Position numbers and translations under genes: made by a program. The notes below the pieces were generated by a model. It was given only the letters and a program-made list of their open reading frames with translations. It had not been told where the DNA came from and ran no database searches. A stretch of DNA of 64,000 nt from Nevskia sp. (lineage in GTDB: Bacteria > Pseudomonadota > Gammaproteobacteria > Nevskiales > Nevskiaceae): assembly GCF_021732705.1 (NCBI RefSeq), contig NZ_JAKFUM010000014.1:1-64000 (forward strand), in the 5' to 3' direction. Positions 26,996 through 47,470 of this stretch are shown in pieces (the first letter of the stretch is position 1; every line of letters starts with the position of its first letter).

Positions 26996-27003
26996 AAAAA
27001 AAG
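26996..27003. repeat. left target-site duplication of the transposon
   Basis: AAAAAAAG directly outside the left inverted repeat. It is identical to the 8 bases directly outside the right repeat (36784-36791). Eight bases is the usual target duplication length of ISL3-family elements. Confidence 0.9.
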
Positions 27004-27027
27004 GGCTAAGTGCAAAAAATGGTTGAA
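27004..27027 (+). repeat. left terminal inverted repeat
   Basis: Reads GGCTA, two variable bases, TGCAAAA, two variable bases, TGGTTGAA. It matches the reverse complement of 36760-36783 except at those four variable positions. Starts with GG as ISL3-family ends do. Confidence 0.92.
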
Positions 27028-27066
27028 CTGCTCTTCCTGGGTAGCCTAGGGTCAATGCTCCGTTCC

Positions 27067-27085
27067 GTGCAAGAGGTGGTTGACA
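27067..27085 (+). repeat. subterminal repeat 2 of the left end
   Basis: GTGCAAGAGGTGGTTGACA, a direct-repeat copy of the inner part of the terminal inverted repeat, resembling the right end (TGCAAAAGGTGGTTGA) more than the left. Its last six bases are the -35 hexamer of the predicted hsdM promoter. Likely an additional transposase-binding site. Confidence 0.65.
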
Positions 27086-27107
27086 GCCTCATTCCAACTG
27101 CTAAGCT
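27080..27107 (+). promoter_or_regulatory. predicted sigma-70 promoter of the hsd-tnpA operon
   Basis: A perfect -35 TTGACA (27080-27085), a 16-base spacer and a -10 TAAGCT (27102-27107). The start site would be near 27114, about 24 bases before the hsdM ATG. It lies between and on top of the subterminal repeats 27067-27085 and 27113-27130. Confidence 0.6.
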
Positions 27108-27112
27108 CTTTT

Positions 27113-27130
27113 GTGCAAAAAGCGGTTGGA
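27113..27130 (+). repeat. subterminal repeat 3 of the left end
   Basis: GTGCAAAAAGCGGTTGGA, a third direct copy of the terminal-repeat core. It covers the predicted transcription start and runs into the hsdM ribosome-binding site (GGAG at 27127-27130). Confidence 0.6.
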
Positions 27131-27137
27131 GATTGAA

Positions 27138-29159
27138 ATGGCAGAAGGGAATGGCTCGGGCGCTTCGTTAGCGGACTTCATCTGGAAGAACGCCGAGGAC
27201 CTGTGGGGGGATTTCAAGCACACGGACTTCGGCAAGGTCATCCTGCCGTTCACGCTGCTGCGCCGGCTTGAATGCGTGCTGGAGAAAACCCGTAAAGAGG
27301 TCGAGGCCGCTCACGAGGCGCATCGGGACAGTGGCATCGACCTGGACCTGATTCTCCGTCAGATGGCGGGCTACCCGTTCTACAACACCTCCGGCTACAC
27401 GCTGGAAACGCTGGGAAGTACGAAGACTCGCCAGAACCTCCAAGACTACGTGGCGAAGTTCTCGGACAACGCTCGTGTCATCTTCGAGCAGTTCGACTTC
27501 ACCAATACCGTCATCCGTCTCGACAAGGCAGGCTTGCTCTACAAGATCTGCAAGAACTTCGCGGGCGTGGACCTGCACCCGGACGCCGTGCCGGACCGAG
27601 TGATGAGCAACCTCTACGAACACTTGATCCGTCGCTTTGGCGCCGAAGTGAACGAAGGGGCCGAAGACTTCATGACGCCCCGTGACGTGGTACATCTCGC
27701 CACCACGCTGCTTCTCGACCCGGACGATGCTTTGTTCGAGGCGAACCCCGGCCTCATCCGCACACTGTACGACCCTACCTGCGGTACCGGCGGGTTCCTC
27801 TCCGACGCGATGAGCCATGTCGCCGACTACGGCAACCGATTCAAGGTGCCGCCGGTGCTGGTGCCCTACGGGCAAGAACTGGAACCGGAAACCCACGCGG
27901 TCTGCCTCGCCGGCATGCTTTTACGCACGATTGAAACAGATCGCAGCCGCGACCTCTCCAAGAACATCGCCGGCCCGTTCAGCACGCTCTCCCGGGATGC
28001 ATTTGCCGGCGAGAGGTTCCACTACTGCCTGGCCAATCCGCCCTTTGGCAAGAAGTGGGAGAAAGACCAGAAAGCGGTCGAGGACGAGCACGAGGAGAAG
28101 AAGTTCGACGGACGCTTCGGCCCCGGCTTGCCGCGAATCAATGACGGCTCGATGCTTTTCCTGATGCACCTCGCCAGCAAGCTGGAGCTGCCCGCGAAGG
28201 GCGGCGGTCGAGCTGCAATCGTGCTGTCCGGTTCGCCCCTCTTCAACGGTGGCGCCGGCTCGGGCGAGTCTGAAATCCGGCGCTGGCTGCTGGAAAACGA
28301 TCTGGTGGAGGCCATCGTCGCCCTGCCAACGGAAATCTTCTTCCGCACCGGCATCGGTACTTACCTGTGGCTGCTGTCGAACAAGAAGCCAAAGCACCGC
28401 CGCCACAAGGTGCAGCTCATCAACGCTACCGGCCTGTGGACCTCGATCAAGAACGAGGGCAACAAGCGCCGCAAGATCGGGGATGAGCAGCAGCGCCAGA
28501 TCGCGGACCTCTACGCGGCAGCCGAAACCAACGAACTCAGCCGAATGCTGAATTACCGCAGCTTCGGCTATCGGCGTATCCGGGTGCTGCGTCCGCTTCG
28601 GATGCGCCTGCACGTCGACCGCGAGAGCTTGGCCCGGCTGCGCGAGGACAAGGCCTGGGCCAAGCTCACACCCGAACAGCAGTCGGGCTGGAAGATGGCG
28701 CTGGCCGCACACATCGGCGAAGTCCAGCCGGTGGACTGGGCCGAAGCCTTCGTCACAGAGGCGACGCGCGGGGATGCCACGTTGGGCAAAGTCGGCAAGC
28801 CTTTCCTCAAGGCGCTGGTTAATGCGCTCGGCGTTCGCGACCCAGACGGCGAGCCGGTCAACGATACGGATGGCAACCTTGTCGCCGACAGCGATCTGAC
28901 CGACTACGAGAACGTACCGCTGACGGAAGACGTGCGCGATTACCTCGCCCGCGAGGTGCTGCCGCATGTCCCCGATGCTTGGCTCGACGCGAGCTTCCGC
29001 GACGAGCAGGACAAGGAAATTGGCCGTGTCGGTTACGAGATCAACTTCAACCGCTACTTCTACAAATACGTGCCGCCTCGCAAGCTCGCGGACATCGATG
29101 CCGAGCTGAAGCAGGTTGAAGCCGAGATCGCTGCTCTGCTGGGCGAAGTGACTGAGTAA
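27138..29159 (+). CDS. hsdM: type I restriction-modification DNA methyltransferase subunit
   Basis: 673 residues from the ATG at 27138, preceded by GGAG at 7-base spacing; the frame opens earlier but without a good site. N-terminal HsdM domain (about residues 5-150), then an N6-adenine methyltransferase domain with SAM-binding motif I (DPTCGTGGF from residue 212) and catalytic NPPF (residues 300-303). Longer than the common HsdM of about 520 residues because of a C-terminal extension (about residues 480-673). Methylates host sites with HsdS. First gene of the transposon operon. Confidence 0.95.
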   Translation: MAEGNGSGASLADFIWKNAEDLWGDFKHTDFGKVILPFTLLRRLECVLEKTRKEVEAAHEAHRDSGIDLDLILRQMAGYPFYNTSGYTLETLGSTKTRQNLQDYVAKFSDNARVIFEQFDFTNTVIRLDKAGLLYKICKNFAGVDLHPDAVPDRVMSNLYEHLIRRFGAEVNEGAEDFMTPRDVVHLATTLLLDPDDALFEANPGLIRTLYDPTCGTGGFLSDAMSHVADYGNRFKVPPVLVPYGQELEPETHAVCLAGMLLRTIETDRSRDLSKNIAGPFSTLSRDAFAGERFHYCLANPPFGKKWEKDQKAVEDEHEEKKFDGRFGPGLPRINDGSMLFLMHLASKLELPAKGGGRAAIVLSGSPLFNGGAGSGESEIRRWLLENDLVEAIVALPTEIFFRTGIGTYLWLLSNKKPKHRRHKVQLINATGLWTSIKNEGNKRRKIGDEQQRQIADLYAAAETNELSRMLNYRSFGYRRIRVLRPLRMRLHVDRESLARLREDKAWAKLTPEQQSGWKMALAAHIGEVQPVDWAEAFVTEATRGDATLGKVGKPFLKALVNALGVRDPDGEPVNDTDGNLVADSDLTDYENVPLTEDVRDYLAREVLPHVPDAWLDASFRDEQDKEIGRVGYEINFNRYFYKYVPPRKLADIDAELKQVEAEIAALLGEVTE

Positions 29160-29173
29160 GAAACGGAGCATTC

Positions 29174-30889
29174 ATGGCCGCCACGAACTTTAAGACCGAG
29201 AACAATACATTCAGGAAGCTGATCGGAAATGGTCTGACGTACCGCATTCCTCGATTCCAGCGCGACTACAGCTGGACCAACGAAGAATGGGAAGACCTAT
29301 GGACGGACCTCTTGGGAACGCTCAAGGCGGACGGTGAGAGCGCTCACTACATGGGTTATCTCGTTTTGCAGTCTGCCGATGACAAAACCTTTGACGTCAT
29401 CGATGGCCAGCAACGGCTCACAACCATCAGCATCATCGTTCTAGCCGTGCTCAAGAACATCCAGCGGTTGATCGACGCCGGCAACGATGCAGACCAGAAC
29501 AAGCGGCGCGTGGACCAGATTCGCCAGACCTATGTCGGCTATCTGGACCCAGTCACACTGGTCGCACGGCCAAAACTGACGCTCAACCGCAACAACAACA
29601 ACTATTTCCAAACCTACCTCGTGCCGATGGGGCACCTTCCGCAGCGTGGCTTTCGTGCTTCCGAGCACCAGCTGCGCAAGGCTTTCGAGTGGTTCGATAG
29701 GCAGGTGGCGTCTTACCTGAAAGCCAGCACAGGCGACGAGGGCATGCGCTTGGCCAAGCTGATCGAAGACGTCAGTGACCGCTTGTTCTTCACGGTGATC
29801 ACCGTCACAGATGAGCTGAACGCGTACAAGGTCTTCGAGACGCTCAACGCCCGAGGCGTGCGCCTCTCAGCGACCGACCTGCTCAAGAACTACCTGTTCT
29901 CCGTGCTCGACCGTGGTGGTGAGACCGACCACGAGCTACGAAATCTCGAGGATCGATGGGAGGCCATCGTCGGCCGGCTCCAGTCGGAGAACTTCCCGGA
30001 CTTCCTGCGTGTGCACTGGAACAGTCGCCGCAGCTTTGCCCGTCAGGCTGACCTGTTCAAGACGATCCGGGCGCAGGTCACCTCATCCGAGACAGTGTTC
30101 CAGTTGCTGCGCGACATGGAAGAAGACCTCGATACCTACCTGGCATTGTCCTCTCCCGAGGCGTCCGAGTGGCCACAGGAGGACAAGCAGCAGGCCGGCA
30201 TCCTGAAAACATTCCGGGTGCGGCAACCGTTCCCACTGCTCTTGGCGGCGAAGCGAACGCTGGACGTTCCAGACTTCACTGGGCTCCTGCGTGCCGCGGT
30301 GGTGATCTCGATGCGCTTCAATGTCATTGGCTCGTCGAGCACGGCGGAGCAGGAGCGGAAGTACAACGAAGTTGCCGAGCGCGTGGCCAAGAAAGAGCTG
30401 AACAAGCTCGGCCCGGTGCTGCAGGCGTTGCGTACCGTCTATCCCGACGATGCCGCGTTCCGAATCGCCTTCGCCGAGAAGTCGATCAAGACTACGGATT
30501 CACGCAATAACCGTGTCGTGCGCTTCATCCTGTGCGCGCTCGAAAAGCACTTGTCTGGCCAGGCCCATGACTTTGCCAGCGATGCCTTCAATATCGAGCA
30601 CATCCTGCCGCAGAACGCGCCGGATGGCTGGGGTGGGTTCGGAAACGATGACGCCGACGCGCTCGTTTACCGGTTGGGCAACATGACCTTGCTTCAATCG
30701 GGCGCGAATCGGGATCTGGGTACGGCGGAATACGACCAAAAGCGTGCCGTCTATCAGCAGAGCGGTTTCGCCATCACACAGAAGCTGGGCAACGAGAACG
30801 CGGAGTGGAAGCCGGACCGGATCGCCGCCGTGCAGAACTGGATGGCGACGCAAGCCACCGCTGTGTGGCGCATTGCGCAACTGAGCTGA
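29174..30889 (+). CDS. DUF262/DUF1524 protein (GmrSD/RloF-like) inside the hsd operon
   Basis: 571 residues. The N-terminal DUF262 domain has IPRFQRDYSW and the ParB/Srx-like nucleotidase motif DGQQRLTT (residues 77-84). The C-terminal DUF1524 domain has the HNH-type block IEHILPQN (residues 474-481) and LGNMTLL with conserved Asn. These are the two halves of GmrSD, a type IV enzyme that cleaves modified DNA, and of 'R-linked' genes found in hsd loci. Sits 14 bases after hsdM and 7 before hsdS, so it is cotranscribed. Probably adds modification-dependent defence; its exact target is unknown. Confidence 0.85.
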   Translation: MAATNFKTENNTFRKLIGNGLTYRIPRFQRDYSWTNEEWEDLWTDLLGTLKADGESAHYMGYLVLQSADDKTFDVIDGQQRLTTISIIVLAVLKNIQRLIDAGNDADQNKRRVDQIRQTYVGYLDPVTLVARPKLTLNRNNNNYFQTYLVPMGHLPQRGFRASEHQLRKAFEWFDRQVASYLKASTGDEGMRLAKLIEDVSDRLFFTVITVTDELNAYKVFETLNARGVRLSATDLLKNYLFSVLDRGGETDHELRNLEDRWEAIVGRLQSENFPDFLRVHWNSRRSFARQADLFKTIRAQVTSSETVFQLLRDMEEDLDTYLALSSPEASEWPQEDKQQAGILKTFRVRQPFPLLLAAKRTLDVPDFTGLLRAAVVISMRFNVIGSSSTAEQERKYNEVAERVAKKELNKLGPVLQALRTVYPDDAAFRIAFAEKSIKTTDSRNNRVVRFILCALEKHLSGQAHDFASDAFNIEHILPQNAPDGWGGFGNDDADALVYRLGNMTLLQSGANRDLGTAEYDQKRAVYQQSGFAITQKLGNENAEWKPDRIAAVQNWMATQATAVWRIAQLS

Positions 30890-30896
30890 GGCGCGC

Positions 30897-32228
30897 ATGA
30901 GTCATTACAAGCCGTACCCGGCCTACAGGGATTCGGGCGTCGAGTGGGTTGGGCGGGTGCCGGATCACTGGGAGATCAAGCCCATTTGCCGATTGGCGTC
31001 ATGCAACGACGACTCCCTGCCTGAAAATGTGCATCCCGATCAGGTGCTGCGGTACGTTGACATTTCGTCGGTCAATCACACGGACGGCATCACTGACGTG
31101 GCGGAGATGCGTTTTGCGGACGCGCCTTCACGGGCCAGGCGCAAAGCCAAAGCTGGCGACGTAGTGATCTCCACGGTTCGGACTTATCTCAAGGCTGTCG
31201 CGGCTGTCACCGAAACTCATGCGGACTGTACCTACTCGACCGGATTTGCGGTGCTACGCCCCCGGCTATCCGAGGTTGAGTCTCCATTCCTGAAATGGTT
31301 GGCGCTCAATGACCTTGTGATTCAAGCGATTGAGGCTCACTCAGAGGGATTGAGCTATCCAGCGATCAACGCGCCTGAGCTAGTCAAGCTCAAAGCTGTT
31401 GTCCCTCCTCGCACCGAACAAACCGCCATCAGCGCGGTCCTGGATCGTGAAACCGCCCGCATCGATGCGCTGATCACGAAGAAGACCCGCTTCATCGAAC
31501 TGCTGAAGGAAAAGCGCCAGGCGCTCATTACCCACGCCGTCACCAAGGGTCTCGATCCGAACGTGAAGATGAAGGACTCCGGCGTTGAGTGGATTGGGGA
31601 GGTGCCGGAGCATTGGGAAATTTCCAAGCTCGCGTATACGACGCGAGAGGCCGGCGGTAAAACTCCCGACACCAAGAATCAAGCGTACTGGGACGGTAAC
31701 GTCCCGTGGGTGTCACCCAAAGACATGAAGCAATCCGAGATTGTCGATGCCATTGACAAGATTTCGGACGCGGCTGTGTCGGACTGCGGGATGAAGCTAT
31801 TTGAGCCCGGAACGATTTTGGCGGTGGTGCGAGGCATGATCCTCGCGCATTCATTTCCGGTGGCTGAACTTAAGGTCCCAGCCACAATCAATCAGGACAT
31901 GAAGGCACTGGAGCCGGACAAGCGCATTAGGCCAAATTATCTGAGGCTGATACTGGAAACAGCAAAAGACTACGTTGTGTCAGTGCTCGTGGCGGAAGCG
32001 GCGCACGGAACGCGGGTTCTCAGGACAGATGTCTGGCGTCAATTGCCTGCACTCCTACCACCTGTCGACGAGCAAGATCTGATTCTTGCCGAATTGGATC
32101 GAGTAATCACTATGTACGCAAAGCTCGTTCAGAAAGTTGAATGCAGTATCGCTCTCCTAAAAGAGCGCCGCTCCGCTCTCATTACCGCCGCTGTCACCGG
32201 CCAGATCGACCTACGGGAGGCCGCATGA
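30897..32228 (+). CDS. hsdS: type I restriction-modification specificity subunit
   Basis: 443 residues with two target-recognition domains in tandem. Each is introduced by a similar block, RDSGVEWVGRVPDHWE near residue 11 and KDSGVEWIGEVPEHWE near residue 223. Each is followed by a conserved helical spacer ending in KEKRQALITHAVT or KERRSALITAAVT. The domains read the two halves of a bipartite site and hold HsdM and HsdR. The middle of the gene is visibly more AT-rich than its neighbours, common in horizontally exchanged specificity genes. The stop overlaps the hsdR start (ATGA). Confidence 0.94.
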   Translation: MSHYKPYPAYRDSGVEWVGRVPDHWEIKPICRLASCNDDSLPENVHPDQVLRYVDISSVNHTDGITDVAEMRFADAPSRARRKAKAGDVVISTVRTYLKAVAAVTETHADCTYSTGFAVLRPRLSEVESPFLKWLALNDLVIQAIEAHSEGLSYPAINAPELVKLKAVVPPRTEQTAISAVLDRETARIDALITKKTRFIELLKEKRQALITHAVTKGLDPNVKMKDSGVEWIGEVPEHWEISKLAYTTREAGGKTPDTKNQAYWDGNVPWVSPKDMKQSEIVDAIDKISDAAVSDCGMKLFEPGTILAVVRGMILAHSFPVAELKVPATINQDMKALEPDKRIRPNYLRLILETAKDYVVSVLVAEAAHGTRVLRTDVWRQLPALLPPVDEQDLILAELDRVITMYAKLVQKVECSIALLKERRSALITAAVTGQIDLREAA

Positions 32229-35200
32229 ACGGCGACACCGCGCACCAGGAAAAGCACTTCGAGGCTTATATCGTCAAACAGCTCCAGAAGCAGGGCTGGC
32301 TGATCGGCGACACGGCGCACTACGACACCGAACGTGCCCTGTATCCAGACGACCTCGTTGCCTGGCTAGAAGCCACCCAGGCCGACAAGTGGGCCAAGCT
32401 GTGCAAGGACTACCCGGCCGATCCGCGCGGTGCGCTGATGGACCGGCTGGCCAAGACGCTGGATAAGGATGGCACGGTGCAGGCTCTGCGCCGGGGATTC
32501 AGCATCGCCGGCTGCGGCCACATCGACCTGTCCGAAGCCGCGCCCGAGGACACGCGCAACGCCGAGGTACTGAAGCGCTACGCCGCCAACATTCTGCGCG
32601 TGGTGCCGCAGCTCAAGTACCACCCGGCGCGCGAGCTGGCGATTGACCTGGCGTTCTTCATCAACGGTATCCCGGTCGCTACGGTGGAGGTGAAGACCGA
32701 CTTCACGCAGTCGGCTTCCGCCGCGGTGGACCAGTACAAGACCGACCGCCTGCCTCTGGACCCCAAGACCAAGCGCCGCGAGCCACTGCTGACGTTCAAG
32801 CGCGGGGCGGTGGTGCACTTCGCGATGTCGGATTCCGACATCCAGATGGCAACGAAGCTGGACGGCGAGAACACCTACTTCCTACCGTTCAATCAGGGCA
32901 ACGCTGGTCACGCCGGCAACCCGCCACGCACCGATGGAGAGTATCCCGTGGCCTACTTCTGGCAGCAGGTCTGCCAGCGTGATGCCTGGCTGCGGATCTT
33001 CCACAGCTTCGTCTACATCGAGAAGAAGGACGTGGTAGACCTCAAGGGCAACTGGTCCAAGAAGGAAACCCTGATTTTCCCGCGCTACCACCAGTGGTCA
33101 GCTGTCAACGCGATGATCGCGGATGCCAAGCTCAACGGAGCTGGCATGCAGTACCTCTGCGAGCACAGCGCCGGCTCGGGCAAGACCAGCACCATCGCCT
33201 GGACGGCGCATGACCTGATCCGGCTGCGCCGCGATGACGGGGAGGCGATCTTCAACAGCGTGATCATCGTCACCGACCGCACGGTGCTGGATAGCCAGCT
33301 TCAGGATGCGGTGAAGCAGATTGACCACCAGTTCGGGGTGATCGCGGCCATTGATCGGCAGAAGACCTCGAAGTCGAAGAGCAAGCAGTTGGCGGAGGCA
33401 CTGATTGCCGGTACGCCGATCATCGTGGTGACGATCCAGACCTTCCCCTACGCGATGGAAGCCATCGTCACGGATGCGGGCCTCAAGGACAAGAACTTCG
33501 CGATCATCATCGACGAGGCCCACGCCTCCCAGACCGGTACCAACGCCACCAAGCTGCAAGCCGCGCTGTCTCTCGGAAGCAAGGGCGATATGGCGAACAT
33601 GAGCGTTGAAGAACTTCTGGAACAGCTCCAGAAGTCTCGCGTCCGGCCGAAGAACCTGAGCCACTTCGCGTTTACCGCCACGCCCAAGCACTCGACGCTG
33701 ATGTTGTTCGGGCGTACGAAAGACGGTGGCAAGGCGAGCAAGACCAACCTGCCGGCTTCGTTCCACAGGTACCCAATGCGGCAGGCGATCGAGGAGGAGT
33801 TCATCCTCGATGTGCTCAAGGGTTACACCCCTTACCAGACAGCCTTCAACCTGGCCAAGCAGTTGGAGGACAAGAAGCGTGTCGGTGGCAAGGCAGCCAA
33901 ACAGGCGCTGGCGCAGTGGATGAGCCTGCACCCGACCAATGTCACGCAGAAGGTCCAGTTCATCATCGAGCACTTCAGCAAGAACGTCGCCGCCCTGCTC
34001 GATGGGAAGGCCAAGGCGATGGTCGTGACCAGCTCACGCGCTGCCGCCGTGCGCTACAAGAAGGGCTTTGACTCCTACATCGCCAAGCATCCCGAGCATG
34101 CCGGTATCCGATCGCTGGTCGCCTTCTCCGGCAAGCTCACGGGCAAACAGGTGGTGCACAACGACGACGAACGCCTAGCCGGCGACGTGTTCGTGGTGGA
34201 CGAGGCGGACGAGTTCACTGAAGTGAACCTGAATCCGGACATTTCCGGGCAGGACCTGCGGATCGCCTTCGAGCGCCCCGAGTACCGGGTGATGCTGGTC
34301 GCCGACAAGTTCCAGACCGGCTTCGACCAGCCCAAGCTGGTGGCGATGTATCTCGACAAGAAGATCGCCAACGACGTGGAGATCGTGCAGACGCTTTCAC
34401 GCCTGAACCGCACCGCGCCTGGCAAGGATGAGACCTTTGTCATCGACTTCATCAACGCACCGGAGAATGTCCGACGGGCGTTCTCGATGTACGACGACGG
34501 TGCACTGATCGAGGAGGCCCAGGATCTGGATGTGGTCTACGACATCCAGAAGCTGCTTGATGCCCACGGCCTCTACGAGCCAGACGATCTGGAAGCGTTC
34601 AAGCAGGCTCGCTTCAAGACCTTGCGCGACATCACCCAGGCCCAGGAACCGCAGCACAAGGCGCTGTACGCGGCCACGGAGCGGCCGACGCGGCTCTACA
34701 ACCAGAAGCTCAAGATGATGCGAGATGCCGTCGCCACCTGGGAATCTGCATACGAGAAGGCCCGTGCCAACCAGGATGCGGCCGGCATGAAGTCGGCGGA
34801 TCACCAGCGCAAGGAGACTGCTGACCAGATTGCGGCTCTGATGGCCTTCAAGAGCGGGTTGGCTCGCTTCTGCCGCACGTATGCCTACATTGCCCAGCTG
34901 ATCGACTTCAGCGATCCGGGATTGGAAAACTTCGCCGCGTTCGCAAAGCTGCTTAGCAAGCGGCTCGAGGGCGTGCCGGCAGATCGCGTTGATCTCAAGG
35001 GGCTGGTGCTGTCGGGTTTTGACATCAAGGCGCGCACGGAGCCCACGGGCAACGATCAGGAAAAGCCCACGCTCAAGCCTGTTGGCCCTGGTGGCAGCGG
35101 CAAGGCAGATGAGCCGAACTACCTGAAGGAAATCATCGACCGCCTGAACCGGTTGTTTGGCGATGCGACACCGTTGCGCGACCAGGCCACCTTCGTCAAT

Positions 35201-35452
35201 CACATCGCCGCCATAGCGAAGGAAAGCGACGTGGTGATGGCCCAGGTCGAGAACAACAACCGAGAGCAGGCCCTCAAGGGCAATCTGCCCGGCGCGGTTC
35301 AGCAAGGCGTGGTTCGGGCTCTAACTTCACACCAGAAGCTGGCGACGCAGGTGCTGAAGGCCGATCGACAGGCGATGTCGGCGCTCACCGATCTCATCTA
35401 CGAGCTGATCCGCGACAGGCGGATGATCGATTTGGATGACCTGAATGCTTGA
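32225..35452 (+). CDS. hsdR: type I restriction endonuclease/translocase subunit
   Basis: 1075 residues from the ATG at 32225, overlapping hsdS by 4 bases; an upstream in-frame start lies inside hsdS. N-terminal PD-(D/E)XK nuclease with Asp141 and Glu155-x-Lys157 (TVEVKTD). Two RecA-like helicase domains with Walker A AGSGKT (residues 316-321) and DEAH box (residues 430-433). A C-terminal helical region contacts HsdM/HsdS. All catalytic motifs are intact. Its last 8 bases are the first 8 bases of tnpA. Confidence 0.95.
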   Translation: MNGDTAHQEKHFEAYIVKQLQKQGWLIGDTAHYDTERALYPDDLVAWLEATQADKWAKLCKDYPADPRGALMDRLAKTLDKDGTVQALRRGFSIAGCGHIDLSEAAPEDTRNAEVLKRYAANILRVVPQLKYHPARELAIDLAFFINGIPVATVEVKTDFTQSASAAVDQYKTDRLPLDPKTKRREPLLTFKRGAVVHFAMSDSDIQMATKLDGENTYFLPFNQGNAGHAGNPPRTDGEYPVAYFWQQVCQRDAWLRIFHSFVYIEKKDVVDLKGNWSKKETLIFPRYHQWSAVNAMIADAKLNGAGMQYLCEHSAGSGKTSTIAWTAHDLIRLRRDDGEAIFNSVIIVTDRTVLDSQLQDAVKQIDHQFGVIAAIDRQKTSKSKSKQLAEALIAGTPIIVVTIQTFPYAMEAIVTDAGLKDKNFAIIIDEAHASQTGTNATKLQAALSLGSKGDMANMSVEELLEQLQKSRVRPKNLSHFAFTATPKHSTLMLFGRTKDGGKASKTNLPASFHRYPMRQAIEEEFILDVLKGYTPYQTAFNLAKQLEDKKRVGGKAAKQALAQWMSLHPTNVTQKVQFIIEHFSKNVAALLDGKAKAMVVTSSRAAAVRYKKGFDSYIAKHPEHAGIRSLVAFSGKLTGKQVVHNDDERLAGDVFVVDEADEFTEVNLNPDISGQDLRIAFERPEYRVMLVADKFQTGFDQPKLVAMYLDKKIANDVEIVQTLSRLNRTAPGKDETFVIDFINAPENVRRAFSMYDDGALIEEAQDLDVVYDIQKLLDAHGLYEPDDLEAFKQARFKTLRDITQAQEPQHKALYAATERPTRLYNQKLKMMRDAVATWESAYEKARANQDAAGMKSADHQRKETADQIAALMAFKSGLARFCRTYAYIAQLIDFSDPGLENFAAFAKLLSKRLEGVPADRVDLKGLVLSGFDIKARTEPTGNDQEKPTLKPVGPGGSGKADEPNYLKEIIDRLNRLFGDATPLRDQATFVNHIAAIAKESDVVMAQVENNNREQALKGNLPGAVQQGVVRALTSHQKLATQVLKADRQAMSALTDLIYELIRDRRMIDLDDLNA

Positions 35453-36746
35453 TCTCCTGAACCTGCCGGGTGTCCGACCGGTGGACCTTCAGAGTTCGCA
35501 GGGGGTCATCACCATCGTCGCCGAAGTCCTCGAGACTTCTCTGCCGGCGTGCCCAGAATGCGGCAAGCCACTGTACCGGCACGGCCACCGGAAGATCGCG
35601 TTTGCCGATACGCCGCAACAGATGCAGCCGGTGCGGCTGGAGATCGACCGACCTCGTTATCGTTGCGATGCCTGTCGCAAGACGCTGACGCTGGATCTCC
35701 CCTTCCTGGACGAACGACGTCGAGCTACCCGCCGGTTGGTCGACGCGATCCGCGAACGCTGCCTCGGAACTACCTTCCGCGGCCTTGCCGAGCAGACGGG
35801 TCTCGCCGTCAATACCATCAAGAACATCGCCCAGGATCTGATCGAGGAGCTTGAGAAGACTGTTCGCTACGAGACGCCGGTAATCATGGGAATCGACGAG
35901 CTGAACTTGGCTGGCGGTTACCGCTGCATCATCACCAACCTTGCCACCAACAGCGTGTTCAACATGCTGGAGGAGCGGACGAAGGCGCATATGAAGCCGT
36001 TCTTCCGAGATCTGCCCGATCGGGAGAAGGTCGAGTGGGTTTGCACCGACATGTGGCGACCCTTTAAGGAGTCATACGGCCCCTACCTTCCCAATGCGCG
36101 GCTGGTAATCGACAAGTTCCACGTTGTGCGGATGGCCTCGGACGCTCTGGAAGAGGAGCGCAAGAAACACCAGGCGACGCTGGATCGTAATGAGCGGCTG
36201 AAGGTGAAGAAGTCAATCCGTTGGCTGACGCTGAAACGCCCTAGTTCGCTATCGCCGCAAGAGCAGGAAGCCCTGAAGCTCGTCCGGACGGGCATCCCCC
36301 TGCTGGCAGAAGCCTACGACTTCAAGGAGGCGTTCTACGGCATCTATGACGAGCCCGATAAGGTCTCTGCGATGCGTGCATTCGAGGCTTGGGAGAACAC
36401 CTTGCCGCAGGAACGATTCCCCAAGTTCCATGCGCTGGCCCGCACCGTCCACAACAACTACGAGGACATCTTCGCGTATTGGGATGCGCCGACCCGACTC
36501 ACCAACGCCTACACCGAAGGGCTGAACGGCTTGGTCAAGGTCGCCAACCGCATGGGTCGCGGGTACAGCTACGAAATCATCCGAGCCAAGACCCTGTACG
36601 CCAAGCATGCTCGGAAGGTCGGAAGCATGCCGCGGCCGGGAGAGGGCATCACTTCAGTTCCAACCACTGCCCCTCAATCCCAGATCGAGTACGGCCCGCA
36701 TATTCCAACCTTGATCGAGCTGTCCGATGCGGGGGACTTGGGTTGA
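35445..36746 (+). CDS. tnpA: ISL3-family transposase
   Basis: 433 residues. An N-terminal zinc-binding region with CPECG (about residue 36) and CDACRK (about residue 76), a helix-turn-helix (FRGLAEQTGLAVNTIKNI), and a DDE catalytic core with Asp151 (GIDEL), Asp202 (CTDMWRPF) and Glu358 (YTEGLNGLVK). These are the marks of the ISL3/DDE_Tnp_ISL3 family. It is uninterrupted and full length. The ATG lies inside the end of hsdR, with the hsdR stop at its third codon, so translation is probably coupled. Ends 13 bases before the right inverted repeat. Confidence 0.95.
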   Translation: MLDLLNLPGVRPVDLQSSQGVITIVAEVLETSLPACPECGKPLYRHGHRKIAFADTPQQMQPVRLEIDRPRYRCDACRKTLTLDLPFLDERRRATRRLVDAIRERCLGTTFRGLAEQTGLAVNTIKNIAQDLIEELEKTVRYETPVIMGIDELNLAGGYRCIITNLATNSVFNMLEERTKAHMKPFFRDLPDREKVEWVCTDMWRPFKESYGPYLPNARLVIDKFHVVRMASDALEEERKKHQATLDRNERLKVKKSIRWLTLKRPSSLSPQEQEALKLVRTGIPLLAEAYDFKEAFYGIYDEPDKVSAMRAFEAWENTLPQERFPKFHALARTVHNNYEDIFAYWDAPTRLTNAYTEGLNGLVKVANRMGRGYSYEIIRAKTLYAKHARKVGSMPRPGEGITSVPTTAPQSQIEYGPHIPTLIELSDAGDLG

Positions 36747-36759
36747 TGAGCAACCCTCT

Positions 36760-36783
36760 TTCAACCACCTTTTGCAAATAGCC
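36760..36783 (-). repeat. right terminal inverted repeat
   Basis: On the minus strand it reads GGCTA, TT, TGCAAAA, GG, TGGTTGAA. It pairs with 27004-27027 (20 of 24 identical). Confidence 0.92.
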
Positions 36784-36791
36784 AAAAAAAG
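36784..36791. repeat. right target-site duplication of the transposon
   Basis: AAAAAAAG, identical to 26996-27003. This copy is also the T-tract (minus strand) and first stem base of the resident terminator, so that terminator stays complete. Confidence 0.9.
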
Positions 36792-46630: not shown

Positions 46631-47470
46631 GTGGCGACTTACGTGATCGGCGACATCCAGGGCTGCAACGAGGCGTTGCTTCGCCTGCTCGATCACCTGC
46701 GCTTCGATCCCGCGATCGACGCGCTGTGGCTGGCCGGCGATCTGGTCAACCGTGGTCCGGATTCAGCCGGAACGCTGCGGACCGTGATCAGCCTCGGCGA
46801 ACGTGCCGTGTCGGTGCTCGGCAACCACGATCTGCACCTGCTGGCGGTCGCGGCCGGCGGCAAGCGCGGCCGGCGCGACACGCTCGACGACGTGCTCGAA
46901 GCGCCCGATCGCGAAGCGCTGCTCGGCTGGCTGCGCCGCCAGCCCTTGACCCATCGCAGCGCCGACAACCGCTGGCTGATGCTGCATGCCGGCCTGCCCC
47001 CCGAATGGACCGTGGCGGATGCCGAACGCGCCGCGCGCGAAGTCGAGGCGAGCCTGCGTGGCGACGATGGCGACGAGCTGCTCGCCCGCATGTACGGCGA
47101 TCAGCCGGAGCGCTGGCAGTTGAACCTCACCCGTTGGCCACGGCTGCGCTTCGCGATCAACTGCCTGACCCGGCTGCGTTATTGCAGCGAGGATGGCGTG
47201 CTCTCGCCGGAACCGAAAGGCGCGCCCGGGAGCCAGCCGCCCGGACTGCTGCCGTGGTTCGCCGTGCCCGGGCGTCGCAGTGAAGGCCAGCGCATCGTGT
47301 TCGGACACTGGTCTACCCTGGGTCGGGTGCACTGGCCCGAACATCAGGTCTGGGGGCTGGATACCGGCTGCGTCTGGGGCGGCCGGCTGACTGCGCTGCG
47401 GCTCGACGACGAGCGTCTGTTCAGCATCGACTGCGAGCAGTATCGGCGCCCCGGCGTCGATGCTGACTGA
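46631..47470 (+). CDS. apaH: bis(5'-nucleosyl)-tetraphosphatase, symmetrical
   Basis: 279 residues from the GTG at 46631, with GGAGA about 10 bases upstream; the frame opens earlier but lacks homology. Metallophosphoesterase motifs in order: YVIGDIQGC, AGDLVNRGPDS, LGNHDLHL, LHAGLPPEW and FGHWSTLG. Hydrolyses Ap4A to two ADP and can act as an RNA decapping enzyme. Usually found next to apaG and rsmA; here rsmA is 20 kb away. Confidence 0.95.
   Translation: MATYVIGDIQGCNEALLRLLDHLRFDPAIDALWLAGDLVNRGPDSAGTLRTVISLGERAVSVLGNHDLHLLAVAAGGKRGRRDTLDDVLEAPDREALLGWLRRQPLTHRSADNRWLMLHAGLPPEWTVADAERAAREVEASLRGDDGDELLARMYGDQPERWQLNLTRWPRLRFAINCLTRLRYCSEDGVLSPEPKGAPGSQPPGLLPWFAVPGRRSEGQRIVFGHWSTLGRVHWPEHQVWGLDTGCVWGGRLTALRLDDERLFSIDCEQYRRPGVDAD

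Follow-up and report, generated by a model that had tools for sequence, protein, structure and literature searches.

A Nevskia ISL3-family transposon built from a type I restriction-modification operon with the transposase gene at its end

How type I restriction-modification (R-M) systems travel, and how they avoid harm to a new host, are open questions. The locus described here is on Nevskia sp. contig NZ_JAKFUM010000014.1. In the 64,000-nucleotide stretch analysed here (the window), positions 27004-36783 form a 9,780-bp ISL3-family element, in which hsdM, a GmrSD (DUF262/DUF1524) gene, hsdS, hsdR and tnpA follow each other on one strand. We are confident that this is a single ISL3 transposon consisting of a type I R-M operon that ends in tnpA; the reading includes control of the operon by the transposase, a part that we consider about evenly balanced. 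A transposon with a built-in R-M operon is a direct vehicle for such systems, and elements of this kind are widespread in Pseudomonadota and also occur in metagenome-assembled genomes (MAGs) labelled as other phyla. The features of the locus are as follows:

26996-27003, no strand: left copy of the 8-bp target duplication, AAAAAAAG
27004-27027, plus: left terminal inverted repeat, GGCTAAGTGCAAAAAATGGTTGAA, holding core copy 1 (TGCA-N6-GGTTG) at 27011-27025
27068-27082, plus: internal core copy 2, its end overlapping the -35 hexamer TTGACA (27080-27085)
27102-27107, plus: proposed -10 element TAAGCT, 16-nt spacer from the -35, preceded by TG (extended -10); weak, 3/6
27114-27128, plus: internal core copy 3, its end running into the Shine-Dalgarno sequence GGAG (27128-27131)
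27138-29159, plus: hsdM, type I DNA methyltransferase
29174-30889, plus: GmrSD-like DUF262/DUF1524 accessory gene between hsdM and hsdS (PADLOC HEC-06/Orf5 models)
30897-32228, plus: hsdS, specificity subunit
32225-35452, plus: hsdR, restriction/translocase subunit
35445-36746, plus: tnpA, ISL3-family transposase, 8-nt overlap with hsdR
36760-36783, minus: right terminal inverted repeat, GGCTATTTGCAAAAGGTGGTTGAA, core at 36762-36776
36784-36791, no strand: right copy of the 8-bp target duplication, AAAAAAAG

The hsdM start is probably the ATG at 27138 rather than the TTG at 27111 given in a mechanical list of open reading frames (ORFs). An earlier description made from the letters of the window (the sequence-only reading) had reported 24-base inverted repeats identical at 20 of 24 positions, a perfect 8-bp duplication on both sides, and a single transposase at the right end with no second insertion sequence (IS) copy. 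All of this was confirmed; where a composite transposon has two flanking IS copies, one TnpA match was found in the whole source genome (28 contigs). The intact genes listed in the same reading were borne out by Pfam and by a motif check. The element proteins matched N6_Mtase/HsdM_N, GmrSD_N/GmrSD_C, Methylase_S, HsdR-type domains and DDE_Tnp_ISL3. HsdM contains DPTCGTG and NPPF, and HsdR contains GSGKT, DEAH and D-x(n)-ExK. By its HsdM, HsdS and HsdR with these catalytic motifs the operon is a type I R-M operon, for which methylation at a bipartite site and cleavage are predicted. The accessory protein has DGQQR and IEH motifs and joins GmrSD_N and GmrSD_C in one polypeptide; it is a GmrSD protein by domain content (DUF262 plus DUF1524), with predicted cleavage of modified DNA. 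The transposase is likewise intact, as had been claimed. It carries PF01610, PF13542 and PF14690 (ISL3 DDE, helix-turn-helix and zinc ribbon domains) and scores 313.5 bits against NF033550 (cut-off 180). Residues D151, D223 and E358, each conserved in 64 of 65 aligned sequences, are in our reading the putative DDE triad.

Whether such a block moves as a whole can be judged from its relatives. Among 37 loci with an hsdM start and a tnpA in reach, 26 have both ends and flanks and, together with L131, make up a two-ended set of 27; L055 and L066, cut by the record end, were left out. Exact 8-bp duplications flank 19 of the 27 copies, and in a chance control the flanking 8-mers were identical in none of 702 cross-locus pairings. 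The left target 8-mers are 85% A+T, and the 27 copies have 27 different ones. The search proposed in the sequence-only reading, for the same block at unrelated loci, found related copies with the same ends at many sites. Escherichia coli KFu015 has a chromosomal and a plasmid copy of 8,166 bp each, with no differences between them and with different duplications. In strain Nord8, matches to the element lie at five chromosomal positions and one plasmid position. Empty sites were sought with flanks fused over one duplication copy. For the KFu015 chromosomal copy at least 80% of the query was covered in one place in 5,369 of 5,426 E. coli genomes; with the tal flanks of the Nord8 copy the figure was 5,373 of 5,426. 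The ten matches listed were unbroken and 100% identical over all 400 bases.

Within the window the insertion is flanked by ksgA and a DUF3613 gene. Of 17 genus relatives, 14 have a DUF3613 match at a distance of 36-342 bp from their match to ksgA; L098 and L103 are without a DUF3613 match, and L104 stops at the contig edge. The spacer between the two genes is not conserved across the genus. In the 16 genus relatives with sequence behind ksgA, neither hsd nor tnpA was found next to it; hsd genes at this site in relatives, without the inverted repeats, were one of the findings that the sequence-only reading had named as fatal to its proposal.

Within the element type, hsdR and tnpA are tightly joined. 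Of 54 loci (near-identical copies included), 30 have an 8-nt overlap between the hsdR stop and the tnpA start and 32 an overlap of any length; in 53 the two are no more than 10 nt apart, and only L042, with 413 nt, departs from this. Pairwise distances correlate across 32 loci (TnpA-HsdR 0.936, TnpA-HsdM 0.946, HsdR-HsdM 0.904; 0 of 2,000 permutations each), and the TnpA and HsdR trees have 13 of 29 splits in common, versus at most 3 in 500 relabelings. A rival explanation is an ordinary chromosomal hsd locus, with an ISL3 element inserted alongside by chance and fortuitous repeats. Five HsdR relatives of 58-63% identity (L157-L160 and L073), which have no tnpA in the stretches examined, fit that explanation. 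Against it, the ends and the exact duplication bracket the whole operon, the target 8-mers differ from copy to copy, the hsdR-tnpA junction is near-constant and none of the 16 genus relatives with sequence behind ksgA has hsd genes there; for the element type, the empty E. coli sites contradict it. We regard it as extremely improbable.

Movement of the operon and the transposase as one transposon is the reading that we retain, and several observations count against it. The window copy is the sole copy in its genome, nine further loci are without one or both recognisable ends, and 8 of the 27 two-ended copies have no exact duplication; the duplication in L131, which holds the closest relative, agrees in 6/8. 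Of the well-supported TnpA splits, 6/19 conflict with the HsdR tree and 5/19 with the HsdM tree, and 11/25 HsdR splits conflict with HsdM; therefore, gene exchange occurs. Comparison with the relatives shows, from identical copies and empty sites, that elements like that of the window move as one unit, with 8-bp duplications in AT-rich targets.

Outside the transposon, related HsdR proteins exist without a transposase. Among 31 HsdR loci examined (including L073), tnpA was in the stretch only for the window and L156. L157 and L073, both without tnpA, nest among the transposon copies, leaving no clean HsdR clade. In our reading a common R-M type would have been captured, and tnpA would later have been lost at least once. 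L073:4933-11531, on the Xanthomonas citri plasmid pCuR, holds a related hsdMSR with no tnpA and no leader array, possibly an escape from the transposon.

The transposases of the R-M elements form one clade (support 0.974; 47 R-M TnpA versus 17 others) in a tree that left out L082, a 28% relative with a frameshift, an internal stop and a long branch. The clade was missing from the first TnpA tree because L082, included there, fell inside it. The clade has a published member. According to PMC8796155, PMC5142620 and PMC10626633, ISKpn25 is an ISL3 element of 8,154 bp that carries R-M genes, and the first of these places it in identical sequence on plasmids and inside a chromosomal gene, so it moves in nature. 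The sequence-only reading had known of no ISL3 element with a full type I system, a claim that ISKpn25 refutes; the window element is therefore a further, divergent member of a known element type. It has the gene order hsdM, hsdS, hsdR, tnpA between its ends and a TnpA of the same clade. ISKpn25, which occurs in Klebsiella and E. coli, shares with it the right-end ISL3 transposase (66% identical, L065), the type of ends, the 8-bp duplications, the single strand and three core copies in the left leader. The window differs in having a GmrSD gene between hsdM and hsdS and in its 8-nt hsdR/tnpA overlap, the two genes of ISKpn25 being separated by 4 nt. Between the window and the ISKpn25 reference plasmid NC_009650, HsdR identity is 71.7%.

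Similar layouts were found in other elements. Those labelled ISSm4, on Aeromonas, Citrobacter, Serratia and Enterobacter plasmids, are built like the window element: a single accessory gene separates hsdM from hsdS, hsdR and tnpA overlap by 8 nt, and TnpA is 71-72% identical; their accessory gene is annotated as a PDDEXK nuclease, whereas that of the window is GmrSD. A GmrSD gene is present in three elements, those of the window, L021 and L061. The 12,458-bp element of a Silanimonas sp. MAG (L021/L131) has a DUF262 gene of 85% identity between hsdM and hsdS and a TnpA of 88%; unlike the window, it has added Schlafen/AlbA_2 and UPF0149 genes, and its hsdS is 61% identical. The 10,077-bp element of Paracoccus pantotrophus pPAN1 (L061) has the DUF262 gene at the same place (90% identical), but an extra small hypothetical gene and an hsdS of only 35% identity.

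Comparison also shows that elements of this type differ in hsdS and in accessory genes. L063, L064 and L072 are 100% identical in hsdM, 99.0-99.5% in hsdR and 99.5-100% in tnpA, and only 59-80% in hsdS; in L065, L067 and L069 hsdS is 60-77% identical and the other genes 95-99%. Since hsdS accounts for most of the difference between near-identical elements, the specificity of mobile copies may change. Across loci the hsdM-hsdR interval holds 40 ORFs, of which 28, with two annotated small genes, were searched against Pfam. Fifteen of these 30 matched: five YhcG/DUF1016, three Abi_2, three RhuM (one with Fic), and one each Schlafen AlbA_2, UPF0149, PIN and Clp_N.

ISL3 elements with other cargo were found as well. 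A type II element (L111:7125-11135; 4,011 bp) encodes an Eco57I-type methylase and a BsuBI/PstI nuclease, with tnpA last; its ends agree in 22/22 positions and the exact 8-bp duplication ATTTGATT is present twice. L147 (complement; 5,097 bp, tnpA at 1041-2447) has a type IIG restriction-methylase as its sole large cargo gene (PADLOC REase_MTase_IIG, 791.6 bits), ends agreeing in 21/22 and the duplication AAAACAGG twice. L117 and L120 (complement) have a single transposase, about 12 kb and exact 8-bp duplications each; the cargo of L117 looks catabolic from reading the sequence, and that of L120 is mer-type. Among distant relatives, no ends were found for 8 of 11 in one set and for 5 of 7 in another. 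ISPpu12 resembles the window element as an ISL3 element that has a single transposase and carries cargo, though other cargo; matches of that name on plasmids are 36.5% identical. L151 carries cation efflux, lspA and MerR-like genes, which are also the cargo of ISPpu12, and has one internal end copy only.

The left leader is where transposon ends and operon expression may meet. Of 30 left leaders, 29 contain three direct copies of the core TGCA-N6-GGTTG, and L043 contains two; a family-type end was the criterion by which these leaders were selected, so copy 1 is present by definition, and several of the leaders are near-identical. A core of fixed spacing was used for the counts. The window copies at 27011, 27068 and 27114 are the only exact plus-strand matches in 64 kb. 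A lone exact match outside the element lies on the minus strand at 46822-46836, with about 0.5 expected by chance in 64 kb of even composition. At the right ends (n = 24) a second exact core was found only in L051, an 8/9 match in L048 and L067 and a weaker one in most ISKpn25-like elements, all extra copies being at position 64. The bipartite look of the core suggested a type I recognition site; this was rejected because the core, which also forms the transposon ends, stays constant across elements with widely different hsdS genes.

Spacing and promoter counts refer to 30 leaders, with L043 excluded and L131 included. The distance from copy 2 to copy 3 is 44-46 nt, and that from copy 1 to copy 2 is 45-46, 55-57 or 65-67 nt, in steps of about one helical turn; in our reading these spacings would place all copies on the same side of the helix. 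Copy 2 runs into the -35 box, with TTGA in 28/30 and TTGAC in 16/30 leaders, the TTG belonging to the core itself. A -10 element of at least 4/6 was found in 17/30 leaders versus a mean of 5.7 and a maximum of 12 in shuffles. Copy 3 runs into the Shine-Dalgarno sequence, and the ATG lies 5-10 nt behind the core.

This arrangement suggests a mechanism, to which we give roughly the same chance of being right as wrong. The transposase would bind both ends and also the two additional end-sequence copies that lie within the left end. As copies 2 and 3 cover the -35 box and the hsdM start and ribosome-binding region, bound transposase would block the operon. As the last product of the operon, it would thereby switch off all of it, the restriction gene too. 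On entry into a cell that lacks transposase, expression would begin unrepressed, with the methylase gene ahead of the others. The benefit to the host would be immunity of a single specificity, and to the element selection for its carriage. Control of the R-M operon by the transposase, which we infer with this even degree of belief, would mean that one protein both moves and throttles a defence system, and the end-sequence copies at the promoter make transposase-controlled restriction directly testable. In the titles and abstracts searched, a coverage outside which most subscription papers lie, no such control was described.

A rival explanation is that the internal copies are extra transposase-binding sites for transposition only, the promoter overlap reflecting economy of space, with the operon unregulated. 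Internal copies may serve transposition alone because they are present in related elements with other cargo: non-R-M ISL3 elements also have internal left-end copies. L120 (mer-type) and L151 (cation efflux and lspA) each have a single copy near position 62, and the catabolic L117, in which the first gene lies on the opposite strand, has two weaker copies at 54 and 107. These copies tell against transposase control, as do the -10 elements below 4/6 in 13/30 leaders and a consensus promoter scan that, at its threshold, found none in the window. What speaks for control is that, in almost every type I leader, copy 2 falls on the -35 box and copy 3 on the Shine-Dalgarno sequence, and that a third copy at the Shine-Dalgarno sequence of the first gene is present in 29/30 of them and weakly in L111 and L147, but not in L120 or L151. 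A role in transposition alone is a serious contender, which we would rate somewhat short of an even chance.

In the type II and IIG elements there is weak evidence for putative leader copies: end-sequence matches at 62 and 107 in L111 (p 0.03 by shuffling) and at 62 and 108 in L147 (11/17 each), a 12/17 match also lying near the other end. The plain ISL3 elements L083 and L010 have no internal copy above chance in a 17-base shuffle test. This control is weak because the same test misses the array of L065 (ISKpn25), with p 0.076 and the best match elsewhere, a further point that detracts from the case for control. It is conceivable, and only just less probable than its opposite, that an ISL3 lineage joined its transposase to R-M operons of types I, II and IIG, with end copies as operator and with hsdS and accessory genes swapped.

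The EcoKI genes are not known to resist loss, since their restriction is alleviated, which speaks against the type I system being an addiction module that retains the transposon in the cell, as the sequence-only reading had proposed. That explanation, which we think improbable, draws on the selfish or addiction behaviour of some host-dependent R-M systems that a review describes (PMC12707154). New here are the clade-wide hsdR-tnpA junction, the duplications and empty sites, the leader core array, the hsdS differences and the type II/IIG relatives; for the clade-wide junction, the promoter array and hsdS swaps between copies no description was found in the open papers searched.

In the genome_contigs set, one scan found TnpA relatives of 55-88% identity at 40 loci, and hsdR was the gene before tnpA in all 40; the scan favours close relatives because it was queried with peptides of the window TnpA. 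The named records are from alpha-, beta- and gammaproteobacteria, with MAGs labelled Campylobacterales, Neomarinimicrobiota, Acidobacteria and Holophagaceae. In an even sample of class genomes TnpA matched in 11/369 at E<=1e-30. Besides the window, only L074 exceeded 50%, with hsdR before tnpA; matches of at most 44% had no hsdR in the stretches examined, some of them short or ending at the contig edge (L121). Among near relatives 18/61 matched TnpA at E<=0.001, and besides the window only L002 (72%) had hsdR in the stretch examined. Element DNA was matched in part by 574 plasmid records, one of them over at least 80% of the element, and by 36 of 5,426 E. coli genomes, none over 80%. The elements are frequent on plasmids typed as conjugative.

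Viral records also yielded matches, and the element may sit in proviruses. Matches came from 45 phage records, all below 60% identity, and the viral_contigs set gave four transposase loci (L122-L125, IMG/VR). L124 has the hsdR end only, plus the transposase. By tblastn, hsdM, hsdS and hsdR lie beside the transposase in L125; all three genes are likewise present in L122, where the matches to hsdM and hsdR are each split in two.

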